From NCBI GenBank assembly GCA_947458345.1, contig CANHBU010000039.1, positions 1 through 10,030 of the forward strand: a DNA stretch of 10,030 nucleotides, read 5' to 3'. Below the pieces are notes generated by a model. The model had not been told where the DNA came from, searched no databases, and was given only the letters and a program-made list of their open reading frames with translations. This stretch comes from Comamonadaceae bacterium. GTDB taxonomy: Bacteria > Pseudomonadota > Gammaproteobacteria > Burkholderiales > Burkholderiaceae_C. Positions 1 to 10,030 of this stretch are shown here, in pieces; positions within the stretch are counted from its first letter, which is position 1, and each line of letters starts with the position of its first letter. The position numbers and the translations under genes are program-made.

Positions 1-372
1 ACCCTGGACTGGGGCAACGACGATCAGCCCTACTGGCTCGAGCCGGCCGGCGCAAGCGGCCGGCGCCTCTTGGCCGTGCCGCTGTCGAGCGAGTGGGACG
101 ATGTGCAGGCGCAGTGGTTCAGACCTTTGGAGCCGGCTCAGCATGCCCGGCAAATGCAGCAGGCCGCGCAGCGCCTGGCCGCTGAATGCCAGGCCAGTGG
201 CCGCAGTGCGGTGATGGGCCTGGGCCTGCATCCGTGGCTGTGGGGCATGCCCAGCCGGATTCGGTATCTGCGCGAACTGCTGGACGCGCTCGCGCAAATC
301 CCTGGGCTGCAAATGAGCACCCCCGATGCAATCTGGCGTCGCTGCGCCGCCGGCCAACCGAGCGCAGATTGA
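1..372 (+). CDS. Polysaccharide deacetylase family hydrolase, C-terminal fragment (5' end outside window)
   Basis: This is the last 123 residues of a protein that begins left of the window; the frame is open from base 1 to a TGA at 370-372. Visible residues include DWGNDDQPYWL at 4-13, the same local block as CDLYHDEQP and CDLFHDDQP in the two complete homologues at 4519-5409 and 7114-8043. Near the end, GLHPWLWGMPSRIRYL (about 75-90) matches the HPFIMGQPHRIEAL-type motif, whose His is part of the active-site region in this fold. Known relatives of this branch are PuuE-type allantoinases and imidase-like cyclic amide hydrolases rather than true sugar deacetylases. The MmgE/PrpD gene starts 25 bp downstream, so the two are probably cotranscribed. 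The family is secure; the substrate is unknown. It is a fourth family copy in the window and clearly diverged from the other three. Confidence 0.85.
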   Translation, partial: TLDWGNDDQPYWLEPAGASGRRLLAVPLSSEWDDVQAQWFRPLEPAQHARQMQQAAQRLAAECQASGRSAVMGLGLHPWLWGMPSRIRYLRELLDALAQIPGLQMSTPDAIWRRCAAGQPSAD

Positions 373-397
373 GCTGTTTTTTTCAGGACATCACCCT

Positions 398-1756
398 ATG
401 GACTATCTCGATCGACTCAGCACCTTTTGCGCCACTCTCGATTACCGCGCCCTGCCCCATGAGGTTCACGAGCAGCTGGGCTGGATCTTGGCCGATACCG
501 TGGCCGCCATCGCCGCAGGCTCGGCCGAGCCCGAGCTGCGGGCCATCGCCGCACGCCAGCCTGCGGTGGAGTCGGCCGATCTCATCGGACTGGGCCGGCG
601 CAGCAGCTGCGAGTCTGCGGCCTTCATCAACGGCACGGCCGGCACCTTTTTGGAAATGGATGAGGGCAACCGTTTTTCTCGCGGCCATCCGGCGGTCCAC
701 GTGATCCCGGCGGCCATCGCCTTGAGCCAGGAGCGCGCAGTCAGCGCCCAAGACGTCCTGGCGGCCGTGGTGGTGGGCTACGAGGTCGGGTCGCGGCTGG
801 GTGCCGCTTCCCAGCTGCGCTCAGCCATGCATCCGCACGGCACCTGGGGCACCATTGGGGCAGGAGCAGCCTGCGCCCGCATCGCCGGCCTGAGTGCCAG
901 CGACATGCGCCAGACCCTCAACATCGCCTCCTCCCTGACCACCGCCACCTCCAAGCAGACCATGCTCGAAGGCGGGCTGGTGCGCAACACCTATGCCGGC
1001 CTGAGCAACCGCAACGGCCTGCTGGCGCTGCAATTGGCCGAGTGTGGCTTTAGCGGCGAGCGCGACGGGCCGGCCTCGCTGCTGGGCAAGGTCGCCTCCG
1101 AGCACTTCGATCCGGCAGCGGTGATCGCGGACCTGGGCCAAGACTGGCACCTGATGCACAACTACTTCAAGCTGCACTCGTGCTGCCGCTACAACCACGG
1201 CACGCTCGATGCGCTGGACCTGCTGGCGGCGCAGGCAGGCCTACCGGCGGCCGATGCGATCGAGCGCATCGAGGTGCTGACCTACCACCTGGCTGCTGAA
1301 CTGAGCGATCCGGCGCCGGCCAATACCCTGGCCGCCAAGTTCTCGGTTCCTTTTGCGGTGGCCACTCGCATCGTCAATGGTTCAAGCGCCCTGGCCAGCT
1401 TCACCTGGGATGCGGTGCGCGATCCGGCGGTGCTGGCGCTGGCGGCCAAGGTAAGGGTCAGACACGACCCCGCCATGAGCCAGCGCCTGCCCATGGAGCG
1501 CCCATCGCGCGTGGTGCTGACCCTCAAAGACGGCAGCCAGCGGGTCGGTGAGGCCGGCGTCAACCGGGGTGACGATGCTTCGCCCTACACCCGAGAGGAG
1601 CTGCGCAGCAAGTTCATGGACCTGACTGGGCGCATCTGGCCCGCCGCGCATGGCCGTGACCTGCTCGAAGCCACCCTGGGCCTGGCCCGCCTGCAAGTGC
1701 CACTGGAGCACTGGCTGGGCTTGCTGTCCAGACCTGCATTGGCCAACGCCAATTGA
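398..1756 (+). CDS. MmgE/PrpD family protein
   Basis: The 452-residue product has the usual length for MmgE/PrpD proteins, which include 2-methylcitrate dehydratase, cis-aconitate decarboxylase and many uncharacterised dehydratase-like enzymes of organic-acid metabolism. Seen directly: MDEGNRFSRGHPAVH at about 87-101, HPHGTWGTIGAG at 145-156, KLHSCCRYNHGTLDA at 258-272 and KFSVPFAVA at 314-322, all characteristic blocks of the all-helical N-terminal domain and the following lid domain. The ATG at 398 is chosen because AGGA at 385-388 lies 9 bases upstream and the protein starts like its relatives; an in-frame ATG at 326 would lie inside the preceding gene. The protein is cytosolic, with no signal peptide or membrane segment. 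It is probably in one transcript with the upstream deacetylase-like gene. It may act late in a pathway on a polycarboxylate; nothing here identifies it as a true PrpD. Confidence 0.9.
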   Translation: MDYLDRLSTFCATLDYRALPHEVHEQLGWILADTVAAIAAGSAEPELRAIAARQPAVESADLIGLGRRSSCESAAFINGTAGTFLEMDEGNRFSRGHPAVHVIPAAIALSQERAVSAQDVLAAVVVGYEVGSRLGAASQLRSAMHPHGTWGTIGAGAACARIAGLSASDMRQTLNIASSLTTATSKQTMLEGGLVRNTYAGLSNRNGLLALQLAECGFSGERDGPASLLGKVASEHFDPAAVIADLGQDWHLMHNYFKLHSCCRYNHGTLDALDLLAAQAGLPAADAIERIEVLTYHLAAELSDPAPANTLAAKFSVPFAVATRIVNGSSALASFTWDAVRDPAVLALAAKVRVRHDPAMSQRLPMERPSRVVLTLKDGSQRVGEAGVNRGDDASPYTREELRSKFMDLTGRIWPAAHGRDLLEATLGLARLQVPLEHWLGLLSRPALANAN

Positions 1757-1802
1757 GGCGCAGCGCCTGGGAGCCAAGGACAAAAGCCTGCTGAGGCCAA
1801 CC

Positions 1803-2195
1803 CTATTGGAGCGAGTTTTCCCCGCTCATGTAGACAAAAACTTCCTGAAACAGCCCGTCGCGAAGCGCGAAGAAATTGCAGTTGTTCTTCAACCGCTTCT
1901 CGCCCTCATGGGTGGTGTTTTCTACCCGGAAGCGGCTGGCCACCCGCTGGGCCGGGACATCAAAAACATGGTCAAAGTCGCCATGCCAGACGCGGGCGTA
2001 GCGATCAGCGAGCCGCTCGTACATGCCCCGCACTTCGGTGTCGCGGCCCTGGTAGAAGACGCCATGGTTGGCGATGCCAAAGCGGGCATCGGGCGCAAAG
2101 CAGGCCAGTGTGCCGGCCAGATCCCGGCCGTCGACCGCGGCAAAGTAACGCTCGACCAAGGCTTGCAGGCCGGGTGCGTCCAGGTGGCGATTCAT
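1803..2195 (-). CDS. SnoaL-like / NTF2-like small protein
   Basis: The 130-residue protein has the NTF2-like fold signature: an N-terminal helix (LQALVERYFAAVDGRDLAGTLACFAPDARF, about 10-39), then alternating strands with HGVFYQGRDTEVRGMYERL and a C-terminal strand ALRDGLFQEVFVYMSG. SnoaL-like proteins include aldol-type cyclases, ketosteroid-isomerase relatives, dehydratases and non-catalytic subunits. It is the last gene of a minus-strand operon. The Shine-Dalgarno AGGAG (2208 down to 2204) overlaps the TAG stop of the upstream PhyH gene, so the two are probably translated in a coupled way. Its stop faces the MmgE/PrpD stop across 46 bases (1757-1802); those bases hold only a near-perfect palindrome at 1756-1768 with no T-run and no convincing terminator. 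The exact reaction is unknown. Confidence 0.8.
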   Translation of the reverse strand: MNRHLDAPGLQALVERYFAAVDGRDLAGTLACFAPDARFGIANHGVFYQGRDTEVRGMYERLADRYARVWHGDFDHVFDVPAQRVASRFRVENTTHEGEKRLKNNCNFFALRDGLFQEVFVYMSGENSLQ

Positions 2196-2206
2196 TGCGC
2201 GTTCTC

Positions 2207-3049
2207 CTAAGGGTGGTCAGGGGTTGGGACCGATGCCTGAAAGCCGGCGTCCTGCAAGGACCGAAACAAGGCCAAGGCCTGCGAGTGACTGCTTCGCGCG
2301 GCCTGCGAGCCGGCTTGCACCAGTCGCTCTTCCTCGATGAAATGGCCGTGGCTTCGGCCCCGCACCCGCAGCGCCGAGGGCCGAACTGTCCCGACCGGCC
2401 GCACGTGAGCCGGGATGTAGCTGATGGCATAGCCCAAGCGCCGGTCATCGCTGTCATTGCCGCCCGATGCGTGAACCAGATCGGTGTGATGCAGCGACAT
2501 CTGACCGGCCGCCACCGGCATGAACTGGCCCTGAGCGTCATCGAAGCGCCCGCTGATACCCTGGCCCCGGCGAATCATGTTCATCGGCTCGGGTCGGTCG
2601 TCGTGCTCGAAGGCGCCCCAGCGGTGACTGCCGGGCAAAGCCTGCATGCAACCGGCCTTCACGCTGGCCTCGGACAGGGCCACCCAGGCCGTCACGTGCA
2701 GGTGCGGCTGCAAGTAAAAGTAGGTGCTGTCCTGGTGCCAGCGCACATAGGCCGGCGTGTGGGCCTCTTTGACGAAGAGCGTGGAGTGGTAGACCAGGAT
2801 GTCCGGCCCGATCACATCTTCCACCGCATCGAGGATGCGCGGGTGATGGACCAACTGATCGGCCCAATTAAAGAGCAAATAACTCTTGGACTTCTCCGGA
2901 AAGTCGATCAGCGCACCGCGCTGGCGCTCCCAGTCTTCGAGGTCCTGCCGGTGGGATCGCACCTCCTGGGCATCCAGGACATCTATCGGATAGACAAATC
3001 CGTCGTGCTCGTAAGCTTGCACCTGATCGGGTGTCAACAGCTTGGGCAT
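2207..3049 (-). CDS. Phytanoyl-CoA dioxygenase (PhyH) family Fe(II)/2-oxoglutarate oxygenase
   Basis: The 280-residue product carries the 2-His-1-carboxylate iron triad: WHQD gives His105-x-Asp107 and LVHASGGNDSDDRR gives His193, followed by Arg203/Arg204 as the likely 2-oxoglutarate carboxylate ligand. The N-terminal TPDQVQAYEHDGFVYP is typical of PhyH proteins. Asp107 is present, so this looks like a hydroxylase or dioxygenase rather than a halogenase of the SyrB2 type, which has Ala at that position. The start at 3049 is supported by AGGAG at 3061-3057 with 7-base spacing; an in-frame ATG at 3067 lies upstream of that site. The racemase-like gene ends 28 bp before it and the SnoaL-like gene follows after 11 bp. 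It probably hydroxylates a pathway intermediate or removes a substituent; the substrate is not predictable. Confidence 0.9.
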   Translation of the reverse strand: MPKLLTPDQVQAYEHDGFVYPIDVLDAQEVRSHRQDLEDWERQRGALIDFPEKSKSYLLFNWADQLVHHPRILDAVEDVIGPDILVYHSTLFVKEAHTPAYVRWHQDSTYFYLQPHLHVTAWVALSEASVKAGCMQALPGSHRWGAFEHDDRPEPMNMIRRGQGISGRFDDAQGQFMPVAAGQMSLHHTDLVHASGGNDSDDRRLGYAISYIPAHVRPVGTVRPSALRVRGRSHGHFIEEERLVQAGSQAARSSHSQALALFRSLQDAGFQASVPTPDHP

Positions 3050-3077
3050 GTCTGGTCTCCTCAACAAGGACCCGCGA

Positions 3078-3851
3078 TCAGGGGCGCGCCACCGACTGTG
3101 CGGCGGCAGTCATCATGGCCTGCAGCATGTCCAGCCGGGGATGCATGGGCTTGGGATAGCCCTGCCGGCTGTGGCTCAAGTTCAGACCCAGGGCGGCTTC
3201 AACCATCTTGTAGCTCAAGGGGCCAGGGTTGATGACGGGCACAGGCAAGCGCTGGCTGAGCCAGGCGTGCGACTGGTGCATGGTGGTCGAGCCCAGGATG
3301 ATCACTTCGGCACCGTCTTCGTCGATGGCGCGCCGCGCCGCCGCCTCCAGCAAGGGAAACACATCTTCCTCTTTACCCGAGAGCAGGGCGTGGTTGTCGG
3401 GCGCCACCTCAATGGCGCGCACCGAGGCGCATTTGTGGTGCAGACCGAGTTCGTCCAGTGCCTTTTTGTACAGCGGCTTCCAACGGCTGGCCATGGTCAG
3501 AACCGAAAAACGCTCACCCAGCATCAGGGCGGCCAGCATGGATACCTTGCCTGGCCCAAAGACCGGGATGTCGAGCACCGAGCGCAGCGCCGCCACGCCC
3601 GAATCGCTCATGGTGTCGATGCACACTGCCGCAAAGCCCTCGTCCTGCGCCCGGCAGCCTGCCTCGAAGTTGGCGGCATCGGCCAGCACGAAGTCATGGT
3701 GGCTGGAATAGTTGAGCGGGCCCGCCTTGACCGGACGGAACTCAAACTGCAGCTGCGGCGACAAAGCGATGCCCTCGAGCTGCTCCTGGCGCAGCGCCAG
3801 GCTCTGAGCGGACATGGCAAAAGGAACGACCACCAAGACCCGCTGCTTCAT
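3078..3851 (-). CDS. Asp/Glu/hydantoin racemase superfamily protein lacking the usual cysteine pair
   Basis: The 257-residue length and fold match the aspartate/glutamate/hydantoin racemase superfamily, which also contains maleate isomerase and arylmalonate decarboxylase. The two pseudo-symmetric catalytic loops are visible: CIDTMSDSG at 77-85 and LGSTTMHQS at 186-194. In hydantoin racemases the corresponding loops read roughly ACFxDPG and LGCAGM, each with a catalytic Cys. By eye the aligned positions here are Thr80 and Ser188; the nearest cysteine is Cys77. FGPGKVSMLAA (98-108) and VPVINPG (204-210) are conserved structural segments. The ATG overlaps the TGA of the isochorismatase gene by 4 bp, and AGGAGG sits 4 bases upstream of it. 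It is often labelled hydantoin racemase, but two-base racemisation is doubtful if the loop alignment is right. It could be an isomerase, decarboxylase or C-C hydrolase. Confidence 0.85.
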   Translation of the reverse strand: MKQRVLVVVPFAMSAQSLALRQEQLEGIALSPQLQFEFRPVKAGPLNYSSHHDFVLADAANFEAGCRAQDEGFAAVCIDTMSDSGVAALRSVLDIPVFGPGKVSMLAALMLGERFSVLTMASRWKPLYKKALDELGLHHKCASVRAIEVAPDNHALLSGKEEDVFPLLEAAARRAIDEDGAEVIILGSTTMHQSHAWLSQRLPVPVINPGPLSYKMVEAALGLNLSHSRQGYPKPMHPRLDMLQAMMTAAAQSVARP

Positions 3852-4522
3852 GACGCCTCCTGCAGTTCAGCGATCGCCTCGGCGGTAGAGGCAACCCGAC
3901 CAAAGAGGCGCTGAAAGTTGCGCATGGTCACCTGATGCAGGTCTTCAAAGGTGGTGCCGCAAGCGTCCTCCACCAGCGTGACCTGGTAGCCGCGGTCGGC
4001 CGCCTCGCGAGCCGTGGTCTCGACACACATATTGGTCGACACCCCCACCATGTAGAGCTGATCGACACCGAGCGAGCGCAGCAGGCTGTCGATGGCCGTT
4101 GAGGCAAAAGCGCCCACCGTCGTCTTGCGCAGCACATGCTCGCCCGCCACGGGTTTGAGCTCATCGAGAATTTCGTGGTCGCGACTGCCCACATGGTTGT
4201 TGCAGCTGGCCAGCAGCTTGCGCATGTGGCGCGGCGCGTCGCTGGCGTCGCTGTGGGCCGCCCCGAGCGTCACATGGACCACCGGCTGCCCGAGCTGGTG
4301 GAAATGCGCGCGCAGCCTCACGATGCTGGGCAGCACCGTGGACTCGATGCGGGCGAATCGGTAATCGGCCACACGGGAGCCCTGGGCCTTGAGGGTGCGG
4401 CCGAGCGCGCCGTGGCGCGAACCGGTGGCGTATTGCATGTCGATGATGAGCAAGGCCGCGCCGCTGGACTCGATCACCGGCTCGCTCATGAAATCACGGA
4501 TGTAGTCTTGGGTGGCGCTCAT
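3848..4522 (-). CDS. Isochorismatase-like cysteine hydrolase (amidohydrolase), module A
   Basis: The 224-residue protein has the catalytic triad of the isochorismatase-like amidohydrolase family: Asp28 in LLIIDMQ, Lys133 in VLRKTTVGAF, and nucleophile Cys166 in VSTNMCVETTA, with the VST segment that typically carries the non-proline cis peptide. Family members hydrolyse C-N bonds, for example maleamate, N-carbamoylsarcosine, nicotinamide, biuret or ureidoacrylate. The ATG at 4522 is chosen over an in-frame ATG at 4582, because it forms a 4-bp ATGA overlap with the upstream deacetylase-like gene and has AAGGA 6 bases upstream. A second ATGA overlap links it to the racemase-like gene. It probably hydrolyses the amide product of the gene just upstream; this is inferred from the context. 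Subfamily and substrate are uncertain. Confidence 0.92.
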   Translation of the reverse strand: MSATQDYIRDFMSEPVIESSGAALLIIDMQYATGSRHGALGRTLKAQGSRVADYRFARIESTVLPSIVRLRAHFHQLGQPVVHVTLGAAHSDASDAPRHMRKLLASCNNHVGSRDHEILDELKPVAGEHVLRKTTVGAFASTAIDSLLRSLGVDQLYMVGVSTNMCVETTAREAADRGYQVTLVEDACGTTFEDLHQVTMRNFQRLFGRVASTAEAIAELQEAS

Positions 4523-5409
4523 GAACGGTCCTTGGCCAGATGTTGACGGTAATGCTGCACGATCTGCGAGCCGGTGGCCCACCAGACGCCCTCGTGCTGC
4601 GCAATGTAGCTCAGAGCCTGCTCGAGCGCCTCGATGCGGTGGGGCTGGCCCATGATGAAAGGATGGACGGCGATGTTCATCACCCGCCCGTGCACCGCGC
4701 CTTCGGCGTACAGCACGTCGAATTCGTCGCGGATTTTCTGCGCGAAAGCCTGCGCCTCGATGCCCCGGCGCCAGGCGATGCTGTCGTTGATCTCCATCGA
4801 GTAAGGCAAGCTGATCAGCTCGCCGCGGCGCACCCGGATCTCGGTGGGCTGCTCGTCATGGTAGAGGTCACACAGGTAGGCGATGCCGCTTTGGGCCACC
4901 AGGTCGGGGGTGTGCACGGTGTTGGAGGCGGCGGGAGAAAACCAGCCCGGCAGCCGCCGGCCCGTGTGCCGCAGGTGAATTTGCTGGCACTGCTCGATGG
5001 CCTCGAGCTCCTCGTCCTGGCTCAGACCCCAGTGGTAGCGGGTGTTGTACAGGCCATGCGACATGAACTCCCACTGCCGCTCGAGCATGGCCTGCGCAAT
5101 CTCGGGGTACAGATCCAGGACAGCCATGGACAGCGACACCGTGATGGGCAGCTGCAAACGGTCGAACAAGGCCATCAGGCGCCACACGCCCACCCGGTTG
5201 CCATAGTCGCGCAGGCCGTAGCCCAGGATATCAGGATGCGGCACTCTGGGCCAGGGGTTGCGCACGCGGACCAACTCGGGCAGGTACTCGTAGTGCTCGA
5301 TGTTGGGCGCCACCCAGACGGCCACTCTGGCCCCGCCCGGCCAGCGCAAGCCCACTCGATCGGGCAAGGCCGAGTAGGCGATGCGCTCATGACCGGCGAT
5401 CGCACTCAT
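4519..5409 (-). CDS. Polysaccharide deacetylase family protein, PuuE/imidase-like cyclic amidohydrolase, module A
   Basis: The 296-residue protein is a NodB-fold barrel of the PuuE-like branch. Blocks in order: WPGGARVAVWVAPNIE (23-38), RDYGNRVG (67-74), SHGLYNTRY (117-125), GWFSPA (155-160), CDLYHDEQP (180-188), MEIND (205-209) and AVHPFIMGQPHRI (247-259). It lacks a signal peptide and is cytosolic, unlike cell-wall deacetylases. Relatives of known function include PuuE allantoinase and bacterial imidases that open cyclic ureides or imides, so ring opening is the likely job. It is the first gene of a five-gene operon and overlaps the isochorismatase gene by 4 bp. The ATG at 5409 has only a weak GC-rich upstream site. 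The upstream gap to the divergent tautomerase-fusion gene is 68 bp. Family confidence is high; substrate is unknown. Confidence 0.9.
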   Translation of the reverse strand: MSAIAGHERIAYSALPDRVGLRWPGGARVAVWVAPNIEHYEYLPELVRVRNPWPRVPHPDILGYGLRDYGNRVGVWRLMALFDRLQLPITVSLSMAVLDLYPEIAQAMLERQWEFMSHGLYNTRYHWGLSQDEELEAIEQCQQIHLRHTGRRLPGWFSPAASNTVHTPDLVAQSGIAYLCDLYHDEQPTEIRVRRGELISLPYSMEINDSIAWRRGIEAQAFAQKIRDEFDVLYAEGAVHGRVMNIAVHPFIMGQPHRIEALEQALSYIAQHEGVWWATGSQIVQHYRQHLAKDRS

Positions 5410-5477
5410 GCGCTGCGCCCGCCGCCGGCCGAGACGGCAAAATGGGGCTCCTTCATACCGACCGCCGGAGACCGCCC

Positions 5478-6038
5478 ATGCCCGTTGTATCGATCACCCT
5501 TTTGCCCGGCTACAGCCCACAAGCGCGCGAGCGGCTGGTCGAGCGCACCGCGCGCACCGTGCGCTCGGTGATTGCCGCCTCCGATGCGGGCACCACGGTG
5601 TTTGTCAACGAGGCGGCGACCTATCAACGAGATGGCCGGCGTTTCACGGAGGGCGGGCCGGAAGTGCCCGAAGCCAGCGCGCTGGTGCGCCAGTTTCTCG
5701 AGCGCATGCAGGCGCGCGATCTCGAGGCGGCACGCCAGTTGCTGGCGCCGGGATTTGTGATGACCTTCCCCGGCGCCGCGCCGATGCGCGATTTTGCCGA
5801 GCTGCTGGACTGGGCCAAAGGGCGCTACAGCCGGATCGGCAAGAAGTTCGAACGCTTCGACGAATGCTGGGGACAAGAGGCCACCGTGGTTTACTGCAGC
5901 GGCACACTTGATGGCGTGTGGCTTGACGGCACGCCGTTTGCCGGCATCCGCTTCATCGATCGCTTCGAAGTGGCCGCCGGCCTGATCCAGCGCCAGGACG
6001 TCTGGAACGACCTGGCCGAGGTCGCCGGCCAACGCTAG
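5478..6038 (+). CDS. Fusion of 4-oxalocrotonate-tautomerase-like domain and SnoaL-like domain
   Basis: The 186-residue protein starts MPVVSITLLPGYSPQARERL, the beta-strand and helix of a 4-oxalocrotonate-tautomerase-type unit with Pro2, which becomes the catalytic N-terminal proline after Met removal. This domain ends near residue 62. From about 65 on, ALVRQFLERMQARDLEAARQLLAPGFVMTFPG and the following strands up to FEVAAGLIQRQDVWNDLAEV are an NTF2/SnoaL-like domain. The start at 5478 is fixed by the Pro2 requirement and by GGAG at 5467-5470; an in-frame ATG at 5442 would bury the proline. The gene stands alone on the plus strand, divergent from the five-gene operon and convergent with the deacetylase gene ending at 6093. 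A two-step isomerase/hydratase on an unsaturated acid is plausible. Whether the arginines of the active tautomerase site are all present cannot be judged by eye. Confidence 0.82.
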   Translation: MPVVSITLLPGYSPQARERLVERTARTVRSVIAASDAGTTVFVNEAATYQRDGRRFTEGGPEVPEASALVRQFLERMQARDLEAARQLLAPGFVMTFPGAAPMRDFAELLDWAKGRYSRIGKKFERFDECWGQEATVVYCSGTLDGVWLDGTPFAGIRFIDRFEVAAGLIQRQDVWNDLAEVAGQR

Positions 6039-6043
6039 CGCGG

Positions 6044-6063
6044 GCAGACCCGTGAGGGTCTGC
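6044..6063. terminator. Hairpin between convergent genes, possible terminator
   Basis: GCAGACCC and GGGTCTGC form a perfect 8-bp stem with the 4-base loop GTGA. It lies in the 54-bp gap (6039-6092) between the convergent tautomerase-fusion gene and the deacetylase-like gene that ends at 6093. A position between convergent stops suits a bidirectional terminator. No run of T follows on either strand, so an intrinsic terminator of standard type is not supported; it could be an RNA-stabilising hairpin. Confidence 0.4.
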
Positions 6064-6092
6064 GCTGGGCGCTGCGCGGCAGTCTTGGACAT

Positions 6093-7028
6093 TCAGCCCT
6101 GCTGAGCGCGCCAAGCATCAAGGATCTGCGAGCCGGTGGCGGCCCAGACGCCCCGGTGACGCATGATGTGGGCCAGCGCCTCCTCCAGCGCGCGGATGCG
6201 ATAGGGCTGCCCGATCACCCAGGGGTGCAGCGAGATCGCCATCACCCGGCCGTTGTCGGCGCTGGCCTCGCGGTACAGCACATCAAAGTGGTCGATCACC
6301 TGGTCGCGAAAGTCGTCTTCGGTGTGGTGGTTGTTGACCAAGATGGTGTAGTCATCAATGTCCACCGGATGCGGCATCGCCACCAAGGAGCCAGCCGTGG
6401 TCCGCATCGCATAGGGCATGTCGTCATTGACCCAGTCGCAAACATAATCCAGGCCAGATTGGGCCAGCAGGTCCAGGGTCTGGAAAGACTCCGATTTGGC
6501 CGGCGACAACCAGCCGCGCACCGGCTGACCAGAGGCCTGGCGCAGCACCGCCAGGCTCTGCTCGATCCAGCGCTTTTCCTCGGCCGGATCGAGGCCGCCA
6601 TGGTGCAGGTGATCCATGTCCAGACCGTTGGCGATGATCTCGCAGCCCCAACGCTTGCACTGCTCCAGCAGCGCGGGGTAGCGCACCGCCACCGCCGCGT
6701 TAACCGCCACCGTGGCCGGGATGCCATGGCGCTCGAGCGCCTTCATGATGCGAAAGATACCCACCCGGTTGCCATAGTCACGCAAGGTGTAGTGACGCAG
6801 GTCTGGGTAGGCAGTCTGCATCGCGCCCGGTGGCTTAAACGGCTGGCCCGACATGTTCAGCGGGAACCACTCCAGCGCCGGCACCACCCACAGGGCGATG
6901 CGCGCCCCACCGGGCCAGGCCACCGGCTTGCGACGGGGCAACATCGACCAGTCGTAGCGGTCATGGTCCATGCCATAGCGACGCAGCGGATAGGACAGAT
7001 AGTCTTCGGGCAAGGGTTTGCTGCTCAT
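6093..7028 (-). CDS. Polysaccharide deacetylase family protein, divergent PuuE-like paralogue, module B
   Basis: The 311-residue product shares the family layout: WPGGARIALWVVPALEW (38-54), RDYGNRVG (83-90), GWLSPAKSES (172-181), CDWVNDDMPYAM (197-208) and SLHPWVIGQPYRI (266-278). At the block where the two other full-length copies read SHGxYNTRY, this protein reads ANGLDMDHLHHG (133-144), so the His is replaced by Asn and new His residues appear a few positions later. It also has PHPVDIDDY (219-227) where the others have SMEIND or SLEMND. The ATG at 7028 follows a purine-rich but imperfect ribosome site; longer in-frame starts would run back through a repeat element and into the preceding gene. 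It is the last gene of the 8723-6093 operon. A different substrate from its neighbours is likely. Confidence 0.88.
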   Translation of the reverse strand: MSSKPLPEDYLSYPLRRYGMDHDRYDWSMLPRRKPVAWPGGARIALWVVPALEWFPLNMSGQPFKPPGAMQTAYPDLRHYTLRDYGNRVGIFRIMKALERHGIPATVAVNAAVAVRYPALLEQCKRWGCEIIANGLDMDHLHHGGLDPAEEKRWIEQSLAVLRQASGQPVRGWLSPAKSESFQTLDLLAQSGLDYVCDWVNDDMPYAMRTTAGSLVAMPHPVDIDDYTILVNNHHTEDDFRDQVIDHFDVLYREASADNGRVMAISLHPWVIGQPYRIRALEEALAHIMRHRGVWAATGSQILDAWRAQQG

Positions 7029-7057
7029 GATTGGACCCCCACGCGGGTCACTGGCGT

Positions 7058-7117
7058 GTACCCGCTGCCCCCCAAGGGGGTGTTCGCTTGCTTGAGGCGG
7101 CTCGGCGCTTCGCTCAT
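7058..7117. repeat. Dispersed intergenic repeat of Comamonadaceae type (C-run/G-run palindrome)
   Basis: The 85-bp gap between the two deacetylase-like genes (7029-7113) contains a run of six C, two A, and five G (7068-7080), followed by a GCTTGCTTGAGGCGGCTCGGCGCTTCGCTCA-like tail given here in brief: key parts are CTTGCTTGAGGC and GGCGCTTCGCTCA. From memory, this combination recurs between genes in Comamonadaceae chromosomes; I cannot confirm the copy number. Its end overlaps the last bases of the gene at 7114-8043 and supplies the stop. The stretch 7029-7057 also holds a short GACCC/GGGTC inverted repeat. Confidence 0.6.
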
Positions 7118-8043
7118 GGCGCCTCTCCCACAGCCTGACCCGCTGCCATGAAGGCGGCGTGGTAGTTCTCATTGAAATACTGCGCGATCTCGCGGCCGGT
7201 GGCCAGCCAGACTTTGTCGTGGCCGGTGATGTAGGCCAGCGCTTCCTCAAAGGCGGCCAAGCGGTAGGGCTGACCGATCAGGTAGGGGTGCAGAGGGATG
7301 CACATCACCGTGCCGGAGTGTTCGCCTTCTTCATAGAGGCGGTCGAACTGGCGCTTGAGGATGTCGCCATAGCGGCGCGGCGAGACCAGGTTGACGTTGT
7401 AGACGATGGTGTCGTTCATCTCCAGCGAGTAAGGGATGCTGGTCAGGGTGCCCTTTTTGACTTTGACCGGCCCGGGCTGGTCGTCATGAAAGAGGTCGCA
7501 CACATAGGTCAAGCCCATCTCGGCCACCAGATCCATGGTGCGCTCGGTATAGGTCAGCGCCGGCGCGAGCCAGCCGTCGAGCTTTTGGCCGGTGTGCTTT
7601 TTAATCGTGTCGATCGAGTCTTGGATGACTTGGCGCTCCTGGTCCTCGTTCATGCCCATCAGGTAGCGGGTGTTGTAGGTGCCGTGCGAATAAAACTCCC
7701 AGTCTTCCTTAGCGCACGCTTCGATCACCTCCGGGTGATGCTCGCACATGGCCACATTGAGCGAGACGCTTCCGCGCATATTGCAGCGCTTCATCACATC
7801 GAGCATGCGCCAAAAGCCGGTGCGGTTGCCGTAGTCGCGGTAGGAGTAGTTCAGCACATCCGGCGCGGGCCGAGCCCAGGGCGCACGGGCCGGATTGCGC
7901 GGCGGGTTGAGCTCATAAAACTCGACATTGGGCGCCACCCAGAAGGCCACCCGCGCACCGCCCGGCCAGCGAATCACCGGTCGGTCGTTGTAAGGCAGGT
8001 AATCGTAAAAGCCCGGATCGCGCCGGGAGGGCAGCGCGCTCAA
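7114..8043 (-). CDS. Polysaccharide deacetylase family protein, PuuE/imidase-like cyclic amidohydrolase, module B
   Basis: The 309-residue product (TTG start) shows WPGGARVAFWVAPNVEF (26-42), RDYGNRTG (69-76), SHGTYNTRY (119-127), GWLAPA (157-162), CDLFHDDQP (182-190), SLEMND (206-211) and PLHPYLIGQPYRL (250-262). It resembles the 4519-5409 protein closely in motif content and is probably a paralogue. No ATG or GTG lies in a sensible place. A TTG at 8043-8041 overlaps the TGA of the isochorismatase gene as TTGA, the same 4-bp geometry as the ATGA overlaps in the neighbouring operon, and gives the length of its relatives. An in-frame ATG at 8175 would overlap the upstream gene by over 130 bp and add a non-homologous extension. 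It likely opens a cyclic amide or ureide; the substrate is unknown. Confidence 0.88.
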   Translation of the reverse strand: MSALPSRRDPGFYDYLPYNDRPVIRWPGGARVAFWVAPNVEFYELNPPRNPARAPWARPAPDVLNYSYRDYGNRTGFWRMLDVMKRCNMRGSVSLNVAMCEHHPEVIEACAKEDWEFYSHGTYNTRYLMGMNEDQERQVIQDSIDTIKKHTGQKLDGWLAPALTYTERTMDLVAEMGLTYVCDLFHDDQPGPVKVKKGTLTSIPYSLEMNDTIVYNVNLVSPRRYGDILKRQFDRLYEEGEHSGTVMCIPLHPYLIGQPYRLAAFEEALAYITGHDKVWLATGREIAQYFNENYHAAFMAAGQAVGEAP

Positions 8044-8723
8044 GATGCCGCCCCGCGCGCCGCCACGCGTGCGAGCTGCTCGAGCGTCTCCTCGATGGAC
8101 AGCACATCGGCGTACTTGAGCATCATGTCGTAAAGGTTGGCAAAGTGCGGCGACTCGTGCTTGTCGGCCACGCACTGCTCGGGCACGATGGTGCGAAAGC
8201 TGCGCTGCAGGCTGTCGACCACTGTGGCACGCACGCAGCCCGAAGTCGAGCCGCCGGTGATCACGCAGGTATCGACGCCATGGAAGGTGAAGATCGACCC
8301 GAGATTGGTTTCAAAAAACGCCGAGGCCATGCGCTTGTTGATGATGATGTCACGCTGCCGGTCGATCACCAGCCGGTCGTCAAACTCGGCGCGCCGGCTG
8401 CCGACCTTGATGTTTTGCAGCGAATCGGGCGTGTTGGTGCGGGTGCCCCAGACGCCACAGTCCTCGCCCGACTCCATATAGGCCACATAGGTCCAAACCA
8501 CCGGAAAGCCCTTGCGGCGAAAGGCTTCGGCCAGCTGATTGACGTACTCGAGCTGGCGTGGGTCGGTCTCGTAGGCGGTGGCAAATTCACCCACGCAGGT
8601 GTAGGCCTTTTGCAGATCGATATTGATCAGCGCTGGCATCCGGCCAAAACCGAAGCGCTTGCGGGTGGGATTGGCCTTGACCGCGGCAAACAACTGCCGG
8701 GCGCTCTTGTCTGAATGTTCCAT
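8040..8723 (-). CDS. Isochorismatase-like hydrolase, N-carbamoylsarcosine-amidase-like, module B
   Basis: The 227-residue protein has the family triad Asp36 in LINIDLQKAYT, Lys130 in IINKRMASAFFETNL, and nucleophile Cys163 in GGSTSGCVRATVVDS. The N-terminal segment GFGRMPALINIDLQKAY and the GTRTNTPDSL region (93-102) are typical of the N-carbamoylsarcosine amidohydrolase-like subgroup, so an N-carbamoyl or amide substrate is likely. It differs clearly from the isochorismatase-like protein at 3848-4522 and is not a recent copy. The ATG at 8723 has no good Shine-Dalgarno; translation may rely on the short leader downstream of the promoter at 8756-8784. It is first in its operon, and its TGA overlaps the TTG start of the deacetylase-like gene by 4 bp. 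Substrate remains open. Confidence 0.9.
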   Translation of the reverse strand: MEHSDKSARQLFAAVKANPTRKRFGFGRMPALINIDLQKAYTCVGEFATAYETDPRQLEYVNQLAEAFRRKGFPVVWTYVAYMESGEDCGVWGTRTNTPDSLQNIKVGSRRAEFDDRLVIDRQRDIIINKRMASAFFETNLGSIFTFHGVDTCVITGGSTSGCVRATVVDSLQRSFRTIVPEQCVADKHESPHFANLYDMMLKYADVLSIEETLEQLARVAARGAAS

Positions 8724-8743
8724 AGCGCAAACGGTAAAAAAGT

Positions 8744-8761
8744 GAAGATGGCGCCATCTTC
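8744..8761. promoter_or_regulatory. Perfect 18-bp palindrome, probable operator over the -10 and start region
   Basis: GAAGATGGCGCCATCTTC is a perfect dyad of two 9-base arms. It ends 20 bases before the ATG at 8723 and covers the predicted -10 (8761-8756) and transcription start of the minus-strand operon. That position fits a repressor operator; a hairpin in the leader is an alternative. The cognate regulator is not in the window. Confidence 0.6.
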
Positions 8762-8784
8762 CCTTGGGGCATTTGTCCTGTCAA
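8756..8784 (-). promoter_or_regulatory. Sigma-70-like promoter of the 8723-6093 operon
   Basis: On the minus strand a perfect TTGACA (8784-8779) is followed after 17 bases by GAAGAT (8761-8756), a weak -10 with three of six consensus bases. A start near 8749 would leave a leader of about 25 bases before the ATG at 8723. The -35 is strong, but the poor -10 lowers confidence; regulation by the flanking dyads would fit. Confidence 0.5.
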
Positions 8785-8793
8785 TAGAACAAA
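8772..8793. promoter_or_regulatory. 22-bp imperfect dyad overlapping the -35, probable operator
   Basis: The half-sites TTTGTCCTGTC (8772-8782) and, read on the opposite strand, TTTGTTCTATT (8793-8783) match at 8 of 11 positions and differ only by transitions. The -35 TTGACA lies in the middle. Size and placement resemble operators of IclR- or GntR-family regulators, which is a guess. Its centre is 30 bp from the centre of the 18-bp palindrome, close to three helical turns. An overlapping exact repeat GTCCTGT/ACAGGAC is also present (8775-8781 and 8793-8799). Confidence 0.55.
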
Positions 8794-8840
8794 CAGGACT
8801 TACTCGGGCATCGCTACCGGGCCCTGCAGCGCAGCTGCGA

Positions 8841-8930
8841 GTTCTGGGCAGGGGCGGCAAAGCCCCGTCATTGCGGCGAGCGGCCTTTGGCCGCGTGCGC
8901 CGTGACGGGACACGGCAATCGCCTCAGAAC
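8841..8930. other. Large nested inverted-repeat structure (REP-like or structured RNA) downstream of the SDR gene
   Basis: Between the SDR stop (8955) and the operon promoter (8784) lies a nested stem: outer GTTCTG (8841-8846) with CAGAAC (8925-8930); CCCGTCA (8864-8870) with TGACGGG (8903-8909); CGGCG with CGCCG; and inner GCGGCC-TTT-GGCCGC. The main hairpin 8864-8909 has about 18 pairs with two bulges. An alternative GGGGC/GCCCC stem (8851-8866) would compete. No T-run follows on the minus strand, so it is not a standard intrinsic terminator. A REP-type repeat is the simplest explanation. Confidence 0.5.
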
Positions 8931-8954
8931 CCAAGCGACCCGCGCAGACCTCGC

Positions 8955-9698
8955 CTAGCCGATCCAGTTGGTGGCGCTCCAGCCGCCGTCAATGACCAGC
9001 ACATGGCCGTTGATGAACGAGGCATCGTCAGAGCACAAAAAAGCCACCGCGCCAGCCACATCCTCGGGCCGGCCCATGCGCGGGAAGGGAATGGTGTCGA
9101 CCATCAGGCGCCGAAAGGCCGCTTGCTCGAGCCGGTCTTCGATCAGCGGGGTGCGAATCAGACCGGGGGCCACCGCATTGATGCGCAGCCCCTTGGGCCC
9201 GTAATCGACGGCCATCTGCCGGGTCAAACCGATCAGCGCAGCCTTCGTCGCCGCATAGGCCGAGGCGCCCGGGTTGCCCATCAGGCCGAAGGTCGAGGCC
9301 ACGTGCACCACGCAAGCGCCTGGCTCGAGCAGGCCCAGAGCCTCGCGCGAGAAGCGAAACACGCTGCGCAGGTTGACATCCAGAAAGCGGTCGAGTTCGG
9401 CATCGTCGGTCAGGTGCATGGCCTTGGGCCGCCCGATGCCCGCGTTGTTGATCAGCGCATCGAGCCGACCAAAGCGCGAGCGCGCCAGCGCCATGGCCTG
9501 CGCCGGCGCATCGTCGGCGGTGACATCGAGGACCGCACAGGCCACCTGCTCGGGCCAGAGCGCTTGCAGCTCTTGCAAGGCCTGGGCCTGCACATCGACG
9601 GCCAGCAAGCTGCCGCCTTGCTCGAGCCAGCGCTGTGAAATCGCCCGCCCAATGCCCTGGGCCGCACCGGTGACCATGGCCACCTTGCCTCGATTCAT
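8955..9698 (-). CDS. Short-chain dehydrogenase/reductase (SDR), classical type
   Basis: The 247-residue product has all classical SDR hallmarks: cofactor loop TGAAQGIG (10-17), Asp35 after the second strand (VDV) suggesting NAD(H) preference, NNAG at 84-87, Asn109, Ser135 in VVHVASTFG, Tyr148 and Lys152 in SAYAATKAA, PGLIRTP (178-184), and the C-terminal NGHVLVIDGGW. The start at 9698 has AAGGA 6 bases upstream; a longer in-frame start at 9830 would overlap the divergent gene and adds unrelated sequence. It catalyses oxidation or reduction of an alcohol/ketone pair in the cytosol, substrate unknown. It has its own upstream region (9699-9819) and is separated by 231 bp from the operon downstream, so cotranscription with it is possible but unlikely. 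Confidence 0.95.
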   Translation of the reverse strand: MNRGKVAMVTGAAQGIGRAISQRWLEQGGSLLAVDVQAQALQELQALWPEQVACAVLDVTADDAPAQAMALARSRFGRLDALINNAGIGRPKAMHLTDDAELDRFLDVNLRSVFRFSREALGLLEPGACVVHVASTFGLMGNPGASAYAATKAALIGLTRQMAVDYGPKGLRINAVAPGLIRTPLIEDRLEQAAFRRLMVDTIPFPRMGRPEDVAGAVAFLCSDDASFINGHVLVIDGGWSATNWIG

Positions 9699-9819: not shown

Positions 9820-10030
9820 ATGAAGCCCATGCCGGTTTATTTTGTCTCCCACGGCGGCGGCCCCTGGCCCTGGGTCGAGGGCATGCGCGACATGTTTGCC
9901 CGCACCGCGCGCGAACTCTCCGCCTTGCCCGCCCGACTGCCGCAAAAGCCGCGTGCAGTGCTGATGATCAGTGGCCATTGGGAGGCCGATGAGTTTTCGG
10001 TCTCCACCGCCGAGCAGCCGCCGATGGCCT
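9820..10030 (+). CDS. DODA-type class III extradiol dioxygenase, N-terminal fragment (3' end outside window)
   Basis: Seventy residues are visible and the frame is open to the right edge. The sequence VYFVSHGGGPW (6-16) and AVLMISGHWEAD (46-57) contain the two histidines, His11 and His53, that bind the metal in the DOPA 4,5-dioxygenase (DODA/YgiD) family. These enzymes cleave catecholic rings, though many bacterial members have unknown substrates. The ATG at 9820 is chosen because an ATG at 9801 in another frame closes at once; Met4 at 9829 is an alternative. No clear Shine-Dalgarno is seen for either. The gene diverges from the SDR gene across 121 bp, so shared regulation is possible. The missing C-terminal part prevents closer assignment. 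Confidence 0.85.
   Translation, partial: MKPMPVYFVSHGGGPWPWVEGMRDMFARTARELSALPARLPQKPRAVLMISGHWEADEFSVSTAEQPPMA

Follow-up and report, generated by a model that had tools for sequence, protein, structure and literature searches.

The DNA studied here is a 10,030-nt stretch (the window) that makes up the whole of contig C39 (CANHBU010000039.1) in a genome assembly of a Comamonadaceae bacterium (GCA_947458345.1). Thirteen genes were read in it and designated A to M. We consider it likely that the window is the ring-opening half of a conserved catabolic island for a substituted five-membered cyclic imide, with genes K, J and I as its core. The source genome is fragmented (66% complete, 399 contigs) and the contig ends at the window edges; the island is therefore cut at its left end. 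An earlier note, made from the sequence alone, had proposed that hydrolases encoded here open a cyclic amide or imide and that the resulting half-amide is then hydrolysed. This order of events is probably right, and the interpretation as a whole was partly supported. The core genes are:

K, 8040..8723, minus strand: isochorismatase-family protein, proposed half-amide hydrolase
J, 7114..8043, minus strand: PuuE-like protein, proposed cyclic imide hydrolase
I, 6093..7028, minus strand: second PuuE-like protein of the core

Conservation and spread of the core

A pattern-based search of the genome collection for relatives of J returned 412 stretches, and the best 80 were used as loci (L numbers denote stretches, G numbers genomes, C numbers contigs). 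Among these 80, K lay directly upstream of J in all 72 testable loci, and I followed J in 74 of 75, the exception being L059. The J start codon TTG overlaps the K stop codon (TTGA). The earlier note had left it to other genomes to tell whether the gene order is conserved; in these loci it is. Relatives of B, 60–61% identical, were found directly before K in L026, L030 and L032.

J is rare in group samples. With the source genome counted in each, 10 of 200 genomes carried it in the order sample, 10 of 398 in the phylum sample and 6 of 299 in the family sample (thresholds 1e-80, 1e-80 and 1e-100, respectively), indicating that the K-J-I island is accessory. The carriers are Limnohabitans and its relatives, and some plasmids; 535 plasmid records contained some J relative, 531 of them less than 60% identical. 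Three metagenome-assembled genomes (MAGs) filed under Bordetella parapertussis (L060), Klebsiella pneumoniae (L068) and Singulisphaera (L011) have J proteins 76–93% identical to that of the window, as in Burkholderiales MAGs, so their names look misassigned. In some loci, a 440-amino acid frame (cluster 18) lies next to J; it matched no family, overlapped the I frame on the other strand by coordinates and was rejected as spurious.

Families and catalytic residues of J, I and K

The six hydrolase genes named in the earlier note are all present at the positions it gave. J, I and G are full-length PuuE-like proteins, with Pfam Polysacc_deac_1 above its cut-off, and K and F belong to the isochorismatase family. 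The fourth PuuE-like protein of that note, A, is only a 123-amino acid C-terminal piece. None of the four reached the cut-off (424.6 bits) of TIGR03212, the model for the allantoinase PuuE: G scored 162.3, J 142.0, I 130.7 and the piece A 25.6 bits.

The nearest solved relative of J with a named function is PuuE. Glu42, His121 and Asn125 of J occur in all 109 aligned sequences, and together with Tyr44, Glu45 and His253 they form a set of which each member is kept in 107–109 of the 109. By eye, the motifs read PN-E-YE and SHGxYN. Metal-dependent deacetylases of the CE4/NodB type are defined by two tandem Asp residues in motif 1 and two His residues in motif 2, and PuuE is described as non-metal-dependent (excerpts of PMC10967932). 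Also judged by eye, J has neither the Asp pair nor the second His and carries Glu where the metal-dependent relatives have Asp. HxnM of Aspergillus nidulans and an imidase of P. putida are cyclic imide hydrolases related to the PuuE-like fold, according to excerpts of PMC9304392. I diverges at the catalytic positions, with Asn134 in 58 and His in 37 of 100 sequences; because it is less conserved there than J, it may be a structural partner of J.

The nearest solved relatives of K are 4l07/4l08 and N-carbamoylsarcosine amidohydrolase; we take 4l07 to be a maleamate amidase, which a literature check did not confirm. K and F matched PF00857 with 102 and 127.7 bits (cut-off 27) and have the Asp-Lys-Cys triad of the isochorismatase family. 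The triad of K (Asp36, Lys130, Cys163) was kept in 96 of 96 aligned sequences, and that of F in 30 of 30.

The island beyond the contig end

The earlier note regarded the window as a possible complete pathway. This did not hold, since relatives have hydratase, flavoprotein and lyase genes in the part of the island that the contig end cuts off. We read past gene A in four relatives: L126, which holds the end of L002, and L127, L128 and L129, which correspond to L015 (Limnohabitans sp. Rim11), L013 and L014. The order was the same in all four: Liv transporter genes, a short-chain dehydrogenase/reductase (SDR), a gene of about 480–494 amino acids, GntR, LeuC, LeuD, flavoprotein and lyase. These include a transporter and a regulator, which the note had suggested looking for in the flanks. 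A gene of about 110–120 amino acids precedes the ~490-amino acid gene in three of the four and was not listed in L128. In L126, these two genes encode a DUF4387 and an AtuA-like protein and form a neighbouring pair that lies between the SDR and GntR genes (7595–9330). The distance from K to the lyase is about 21 kb in L002/L126. L130 and L131 did not contain the ends of L041 and L043 and were not counted as continuations.

The L126 LeuC scored 395.6 bits against hacA_fam (cut-off 385.7), and its LeuD 158.1 bits against TIGR02087 (LeuD/DmdB; cut-off 108.95), so both are assigned to these families. The lyases of L126, L080 and L085 stayed below the PrpB model TIGR02317, with 284.0, 293.7 and 252.6 bits against a cut-off of 354.4. 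The sequence KRCGH was present in all ten cluster-15 lyases and in those of L126–L129; it fits K-(K/R)-C-G-H, which we take to be the catalytic motif of C-C lyases of the ICL/PEP-mutase superfamily. The L080 lyase matched petal death protein (219 bits), 2,3-dimethylmalate lyase 3fa3 (211) and methylisocitrate lyase (206). The flavoprotein is fumarate-reductase/TcuA-like; the L126 copy was below the cut-offs of TcuA (NF006130; 118.8 against 369) and flavocytochrome c (223.1 against 285.45). Judged by family, these enzymes would act on 1,4-dicarboxylates or related tricarboxylates. A succinimide or maleimide that is opened and deamidated would give 1,4-dicarboxylates directly, which fits the downstream hydratase, flavoprotein and lyase.

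The source genome carries the lyase, with 98% identity across 223 residues, at an edge of contig C84. Just as in L126, the next gene is CaiB, the DNA of the two being 85.6% identical along 1815 bases; in L127 and L129, the lyase has no CaiB gene after it.

Linkage of the hydratase and lyase to ring openers

We examined linkage in 23 group-sampled genomes with J, leaving out the source genome. LeuC lay within about 12 kb of J in 12 of the 23, ten in regions that were read and two by coordinates (G190, G445). Only 0.42 were expected by chance and the maximum in one million simulations was 6, a figure that takes LeuC copies from one query plus one per genome and treats genomes of the same genus as independent. 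The lyase was near J in eight of the 23, seven in regions read (that of L107 only 38% identical) and one by coordinates (G152). Some of the 23 genomes share a genus, and J has no K neighbour in L099, L101, L106, L113 and L114; in L111, K is about 3 kb from J. Five of the sampled contigs are also among the 80 loci (G670 = L049, G644 = L075, G152 = L059, G190 = L076, G067 = L063), and a second J contig of G627 (C31), which resembles L069 by match position, was left out. In L078, L079 and L080, a single gene run holds K-J-I, LeuC, LeuD, the Liv genes, the lyase and the flavoprotein. The LeuC of G263 (L108, 13300–14800) looks frameshifted, being split into two pieces that overlap, one of which contains an internal stop.

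For the reverse test, the L126 lyase was searched in 399 genomes of the order (1e-105) and found in 16, including the source genome. One region was read for each of the 15 others (G017 = L097; one of the two G429 matches was covered), and LeuC was present in 11 of the 15. HyuA, HyuB and an isochorismatase-family gene were in the lyase run of L139, L141 and L144, the families being confirmed for L141 and L144 and given by BLAST label only for L139. A scan of unlabelled frames revealed a ring opener in L138 and L149 as well, an allantoinase/dihydropyrimidinase-like hydrolase below model cut-offs and, in L138, without a Pfam match. J was searched for and not found in four of these five sister-operon genomes (G560, G573, G153, G112); the fifth, G1025 (L149), was not searched for J. 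K-J-I was linked to the lyase in G017 and lay 10 kb from it in G152. In the sister operons, the same lyase and hydratase are accompanied by unrelated ring openers instead of K-J-I; J/I are therefore best read as the ring opener and K as the half-amide hydrolase. That one operon context can hold ring openers of three unrelated kinds is, in our view, the strongest evidence for ring opening by J/I. On a Salipiger plasmid (L087, 10765–21390), K-J-I, HyuAB and two amidases are in one stretch, so that two kinds of ring opener stand side by side.

Proposed route and substrate

The genes present, their order and conservation, their motifs and the alternative ring openers of sister operons lead us to infer a general route, probable as a whole, in which an imide is imported, opened, deamidated, hydrated and cleaved to pyruvate. 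A Liv-type ABC transporter would import the compound. J with its partner I would open the imide to a half-amide without a metal, and K would convert the half-amide to a 1,4-dicarboxylate and ammonia. From a saturated (succinimide) form, the fumarate-reductase/TcuA-like flavoprotein would then produce the maleate. The DmdAB/homoaconitase-type hydratase, perhaps with the MmgE/PrpD protein B, would hydrate the maleate, and the PrpB/dimethylmalate-lyase-like enzyme would split the hydroxy acid into pyruvate and a second acid.

A clue to the second acid came from neighbouring genes. On a B. plantarii plasmid, CaiB, an acyl-coenzyme A (CoA) dehydrogenase and an electron-transfer flavoprotein are annotated beside K-J-I. 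After these neighbours had been seen, 'pyruvate + glutarate/butyrate' from tetrapyrrole maleimides was predicted, and the identity of the dehydrogenase was set as the test. This dehydrogenase (the L082 copy) matched the solved glutaryl-CoA dehydrogenase 3gnc with 735 bits, 4w9u (named only acyl-CoA dehydrogenase) with 584 and the first clearly different enzyme with 237, indicating that this copy is a glutaryl-CoA dehydrogenase; copies in other loci were assigned by identity to L082 only. None of the CaiB proteins tested reached the cut-off (750 bits) of the succinate-glutarate CoA-transferase model NF052585 (L082 542, L126 257, L088 236), which is nevertheless the best model for the L082 protein, the next scoring 318 bits.

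Glutaryl-CoA dehydrogenase occurs with K-J-I in three lineages, the loci besides L082 being L120, L121, L038/L040 and L100/L105; glutarate CoA-transferase-like genes occur in two of the three. In Caballeronia hypogeia (L120) and Chitinasiproducens palmae (L121), the layout is MmgE-K-J-I / GntR-LeuC-LeuD-flavoprotein-lyase-porin-EtfB-EtfA-dehydrogenase-CaiB. In two Ramlibacter MAGs (L038, L040), the dehydrogenase and CaiB genes immediately precede K, and the G-F-E-D-C-B set of the window is present as well in L040; in G084 and G204 the dehydrogenase is beside K. The window J falls in a well-supported clade of 18 rows (100/98) with the Burkholderia-type J. The dehydrogenase neighbours in three lineages suggest glutarate as the second acid; the substrate would then be hematinic acid imide or its dihydro form, which we propose tentatively and hold to be somewhat less likely than not. 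The balance would close, with the hydrated triacid C8H12O7 giving pyruvate (C3H4O3) and glutarate (C5H8O4). Hematinic acid is a product of tetrapyrrole oxidation, and papers pairing the term with heme, bilirubin or chlorophyll exist in the literature.

Several observations weigh against this reading. Of the 23 sampled genomes, only two, which belong to the same genus, have glutaryl-CoA dehydrogenase near J; for the remaining 21, it was on another contig, more than 100 kb away or not found. It was not seen near J in G001, G011 and G012, and was in none of 14 lyase regions (L139 has one 26% identical acyl-CoA dehydrogenase). In L026 (G015), the cluster runs to the contig end and a dehydrogenase linkage would not be visible. 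No second glutaryl-CoA dehydrogenase was found in Ramlibacter (G005, G879), G013, G084 and G204, so the island may have come to lie next to the single copy. The source genome, at 66% completeness, yielded no LeuC (best match 34%). Eight of the 15 lyase regions had no labelled ring opener, although unlabelled frames were not scanned there and G190 has K-J-I on another contig. LeuC and lyase without a labelled ring opener occurred in L140, L142, L146, L148 and L151, mostly beside TctC receptors, suggesting that the hydratase-lyase core may also serve acids from other sources. The other ring openers are in the gene run but do not occupy the exact position of K-J-I. A gene resembling 3-hydroxy-3-methylglutaryl-CoA lyase is present on several plasmids and in several genomes, so cleavage may differ in those carriers. 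Among the annotated plasmid stretches, hemP was the only gene to point to heme, no search for heme or bilin genes having been made. This hemin uptake gene (L092, 8712–8903) lies about 4 kb from K-J-I on a Variovorax plasmid whose J is 45% identical; the proximity is perhaps chance.

Alternative substrates

Another alkyl-maleimide or succinimide (methyl-, dimethyl- or ethylmethyl-) would yield pyruvate with acetate, propionate or butyrate, and the homologue may vary by carrier. The same enzymes would suffice, and dimethylmaleate hydratase with dimethylmalate lyase, as in Eubacterium, is the nearest known logic. The 21 sampled carriers without a linked glutaryl-CoA dehydrogenase agree with such a substrate, as does L081, where an acyl-CoA ligase, another acyl-CoA dehydrogenase and an alpha/beta hydrolase precede K. 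We regard it as somewhat unlikely, as it leaves unexplained the dehydrogenase in three lineages and the glutarate CoA-transferase-like genes in two.

The earlier note also listed hydantoins, ureides and barbiturates as candidates. If the substrate were a hydantoin, ureide or pyrimidine, J/I would be a hydantoinase or allantoinase, K and F carbamoylases and E a hydantoin racemase. K does resemble N-carbamoylsarcosine amidohydrolase, F biuret hydrolase/RutB and E allantoin and hydantoin racemases, and sister operons hold HyuAB and allantoinase/hydantoinase-like enzymes. A carbamoylase would, however, release an amino acid, which is no substrate for an aconitase-type hydratase and an isocitrate-lyase-type lyase; the downstream families, with their 1,4-dicarboxylates and related tricarboxylates, thus disfavour these compounds. 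In addition, E lacks both racemase cysteines, and J, I and G are far below the allantoinase cut-off. Such a substrate is improbable.

With glutarimide or a substituted glutarimide, J/I and K would produce glutarate directly, glutaryl-CoA dehydrogenase would finish the route, and the hydratase and lyase would belong to a separate linked pathway. L038 and L040 would fit, having the dehydrogenase and CaiB beside K-J-I and no labelled hydratase or lyase (the L040 sequence stops where the Liv genes begin, which puts any continuation out of view), and a six-membered imide is what HxnM, which shares the fold, opens (excerpts of PMC9304392). LeuC would be useless for glutarimide and yet 12 of the 23 sampled genomes have it near J, and in L078–L080 the core, hydratase, transporter, lyase and flavoprotein are one run; this route therefore seems quite improbable.

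Xenobiotic imides such as phthalimide or tetrahydrophthalimide from fungicides are very improbable substrates: actinobacterial plasmid relatives (36–41% identical) do lie beside Rieske dioxygenase, dehydrogenase and class II aldolase genes, which we read as a phthalate-like set, and J relatives are in 535 plasmid records, but no aromatic ring dioxygenase set is labelled in the window-type island, and the hydratase and lyase do not fit phthalate. On two actinobacterial plasmids (L084, 10995–21251; L095, 11992–21071), PuuE-like and N-carbamoylsarcosine-amidohydrolase-like genes accompany phthalate-type dioxygenase, dehydrogenase and class II aldolase genes, possibly a phthalimide route; the PuuE-like match of L084 is in two pieces and unannotated.

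Riboflavin catabolism was also considered and dropped, as six terms for these families and compounds were all absent from the main text of a paper on the full pathway (PMC12746152).

The possible second module and flanking genes

The other features of the window are:

A, 1..372, plus strand: C-terminal piece of a PuuE-like hydrolase, cut at the contig end
B, 398..1756, plus strand: MmgE/PrpD-family protein (PF03972 and PF19305)
C, 1803..2195, minus strand: SnoaL-like protein (PF12680)
D, 2207..3049, minus strand: PhyH-family Fe(II)/2-oxoglutarate dioxygenase (PF05721)
E, 3078..3851, minus strand: Asp/Glu/hydantoin-racemase-family protein (PF01177)
F, 3848..4522, minus strand: isochorismatase-family amidase, biuret hydrolase/RutB-like (PF00857)
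G, 4519..5409, minus strand: PuuE-like hydrolase of the second module (PF01522; TIGR03212, 162 bits)
H, 5478..6038, plus strand: SnoaL protein (PF12680) with a tautomerase-like N-terminal piece and a Met-Pro start
Terminator-like stem-loop, 8744..8761, minus strand: between SDR gene L and K, by pattern match only
L, 8955..9698, minus strand: SDR oxidoreductase
M, 9829..10030, plus strand: N-terminal piece of a 4,5-DOPA-dioxygenase-like (LigB-like) protein, cut at the contig end (NF007914, 20.1 bits)

K-J-I and G-F-E-D-C thus run on the minus strand, with H on the opposite strand between them and A-B on the plus strand. By coordinates, G and F overlap by 4 bases, as do F and E. The MmgE/PrpD, SnoaL, PhyH, Asp/Glu-racemase-family and SDR genes that the earlier note had read were all confirmed. 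Its tautomerase-SnoaL fusion (H) was borne out for the SnoaL part, the only part that Pfam found; NCBIfam found nothing, and the tautomerase part was matched by neither.

For 44 loci, the sequence reached 8.5 kb or more downstream. Among them, H was present in 17 loci, G and F in 24 each, E in 31, D in 20, C in 21, B in 25 and A in 11, while 13 loci had K, I, G, F, E, D, C and B all together. The PhyH, SnoaL and tautomerase-like fusion genes belong to the less widespread half of the island. The motifs described for J are kept in 39 aligned sequences of G. F scored 86 bits against NF050097, below its cut-off of 370. In E, the two cysteines on which hydantoin/allantoin racemases rely for catalysis are replaced by Thr80 and Ser188, as in all 46 aligned sequences; E probably does not catalyse a two-cysteine racemisation. 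D has HxD...H and Arg in 23 of 23 aligned sequences, and its best solved relative is 6zyk. We suggest, weakly, that G-F with E, D, C and H might be a second ring-opening module for a related compound.

B, whose nearest solved relatives are IDS-epimerase and IRG1, is proposed to be a hydratase/dehydratase or epimerase of a tri- or dicarboxylate. Complementarity between MmgE/PrpD and LeuCD was considered and dropped, as both are together in several clusters. A had no Pfam match over its 123 amino acids, in which LHPWLWGMPSR was read; a longer counterpart lies beside B in L002, L040 and L126.

On the other side of the core, the SDR gene L is found on the same side of K in L001, L002, L004 and L005. 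The window has a shorter version of this region (8724–8954), lacking three genes that separate the SDR from K in L001, L002 and L005: an enoyl-CoA hydratase, a TctC-type receptor and a protein of about 277 amino acids without a Pfam match. Pattern matching alone found 11 terminator-like sites in the window, against 6.4 expected. M is probably outside the pathway; a 4,5-DOPA-dioxygenase-like gene is also near the island in L002 and L004.

Comparison with known systems

J, I and G match PuuE over most of their length. They differ from it in score (131–162 bits against a cut-off of 424.6), in having two dissimilar copies next to each other (74 of 75 testable loci) and in the operon around them. 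The fold is used for small cyclic imides (excerpts of PMC9304392), and HxnM and the P. putida YZ-26 imidase are likened to J, I and G by description, not by sequence.

DmdAB and dimethylmalate lyase belong to the nicotinate fermentation of Eubacterium barkeri. The order of the chemistry is the same there, a dialkylmaleate being hydrated and then split to pyruvate and an acid. The L126 LeuD passes the LeuD/DmdB model and the L080 lyase matches 2,3-dimethylmalate lyase. The island differs in that it would be fed by imide opening instead of nicotinate, occurs in beta- and alphaproteobacteria and has its own flavoprotein and transporter.

Like the methylcitrate cycle (PrpD, aconitase, PrpB), the island has an MmgE/PrpD protein, an aconitase-type hydratase and a PrpB-like lyase, and its predicted triacid would be one CH2 longer than 2-methyl-cis-aconitate. 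In contrast to that cycle, the lyase is below the PrpB cut-off (284 against 354.4), and no methylcitrate synthase is among the labelled island genes, none having been specifically searched for. The creatinine/N-methylhydantoin route and the maleamate step (NicF/Ami) likewise combine a ring opener with a following isochorismatase-family amidase. Unlike in the creatinine/N-methylhydantoin route, the opener of the island is PuuE-like, and HyuAB is found only in sister operons and beside K-J-I in L087.

Implications

Few nitrogen rings in nature are as abundant as tetrapyrroles such as chlorophyll and heme. To our knowledge, no bacterial genes are known for the maleimide fragments that their oxidation yields. 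With its partial coverage, our literature search turned up neither a report on this cluster nor bacterial genes that degrade hematinic acid, which is weak evidence of absence. It is doubtful, though conceivable, that the breakdown of heme and chlorophyll finds its missing bacterial end in this island. In that case the island would import hematinic acid imide and related methyl-alkyl maleimides set free by tetrapyrrole oxidation and convert them, through the PuuE-like pair and a methylcitrate-like hydratase and lyase, to pyruvate and glutarate, with a second module of G-F and a dioxygenase serving the ethyl or vinyl rings. If this is true, the island could let bacteria consume the ring fragments of heme and chlorophyll. 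The findings would also help to correct many 'polysaccharide deacetylase' annotations. Even with a different imide, the island would represent a modular way of degrading cyclic imides, with a single hydratase-lyase core serving ring openers of three unrelated kinds.

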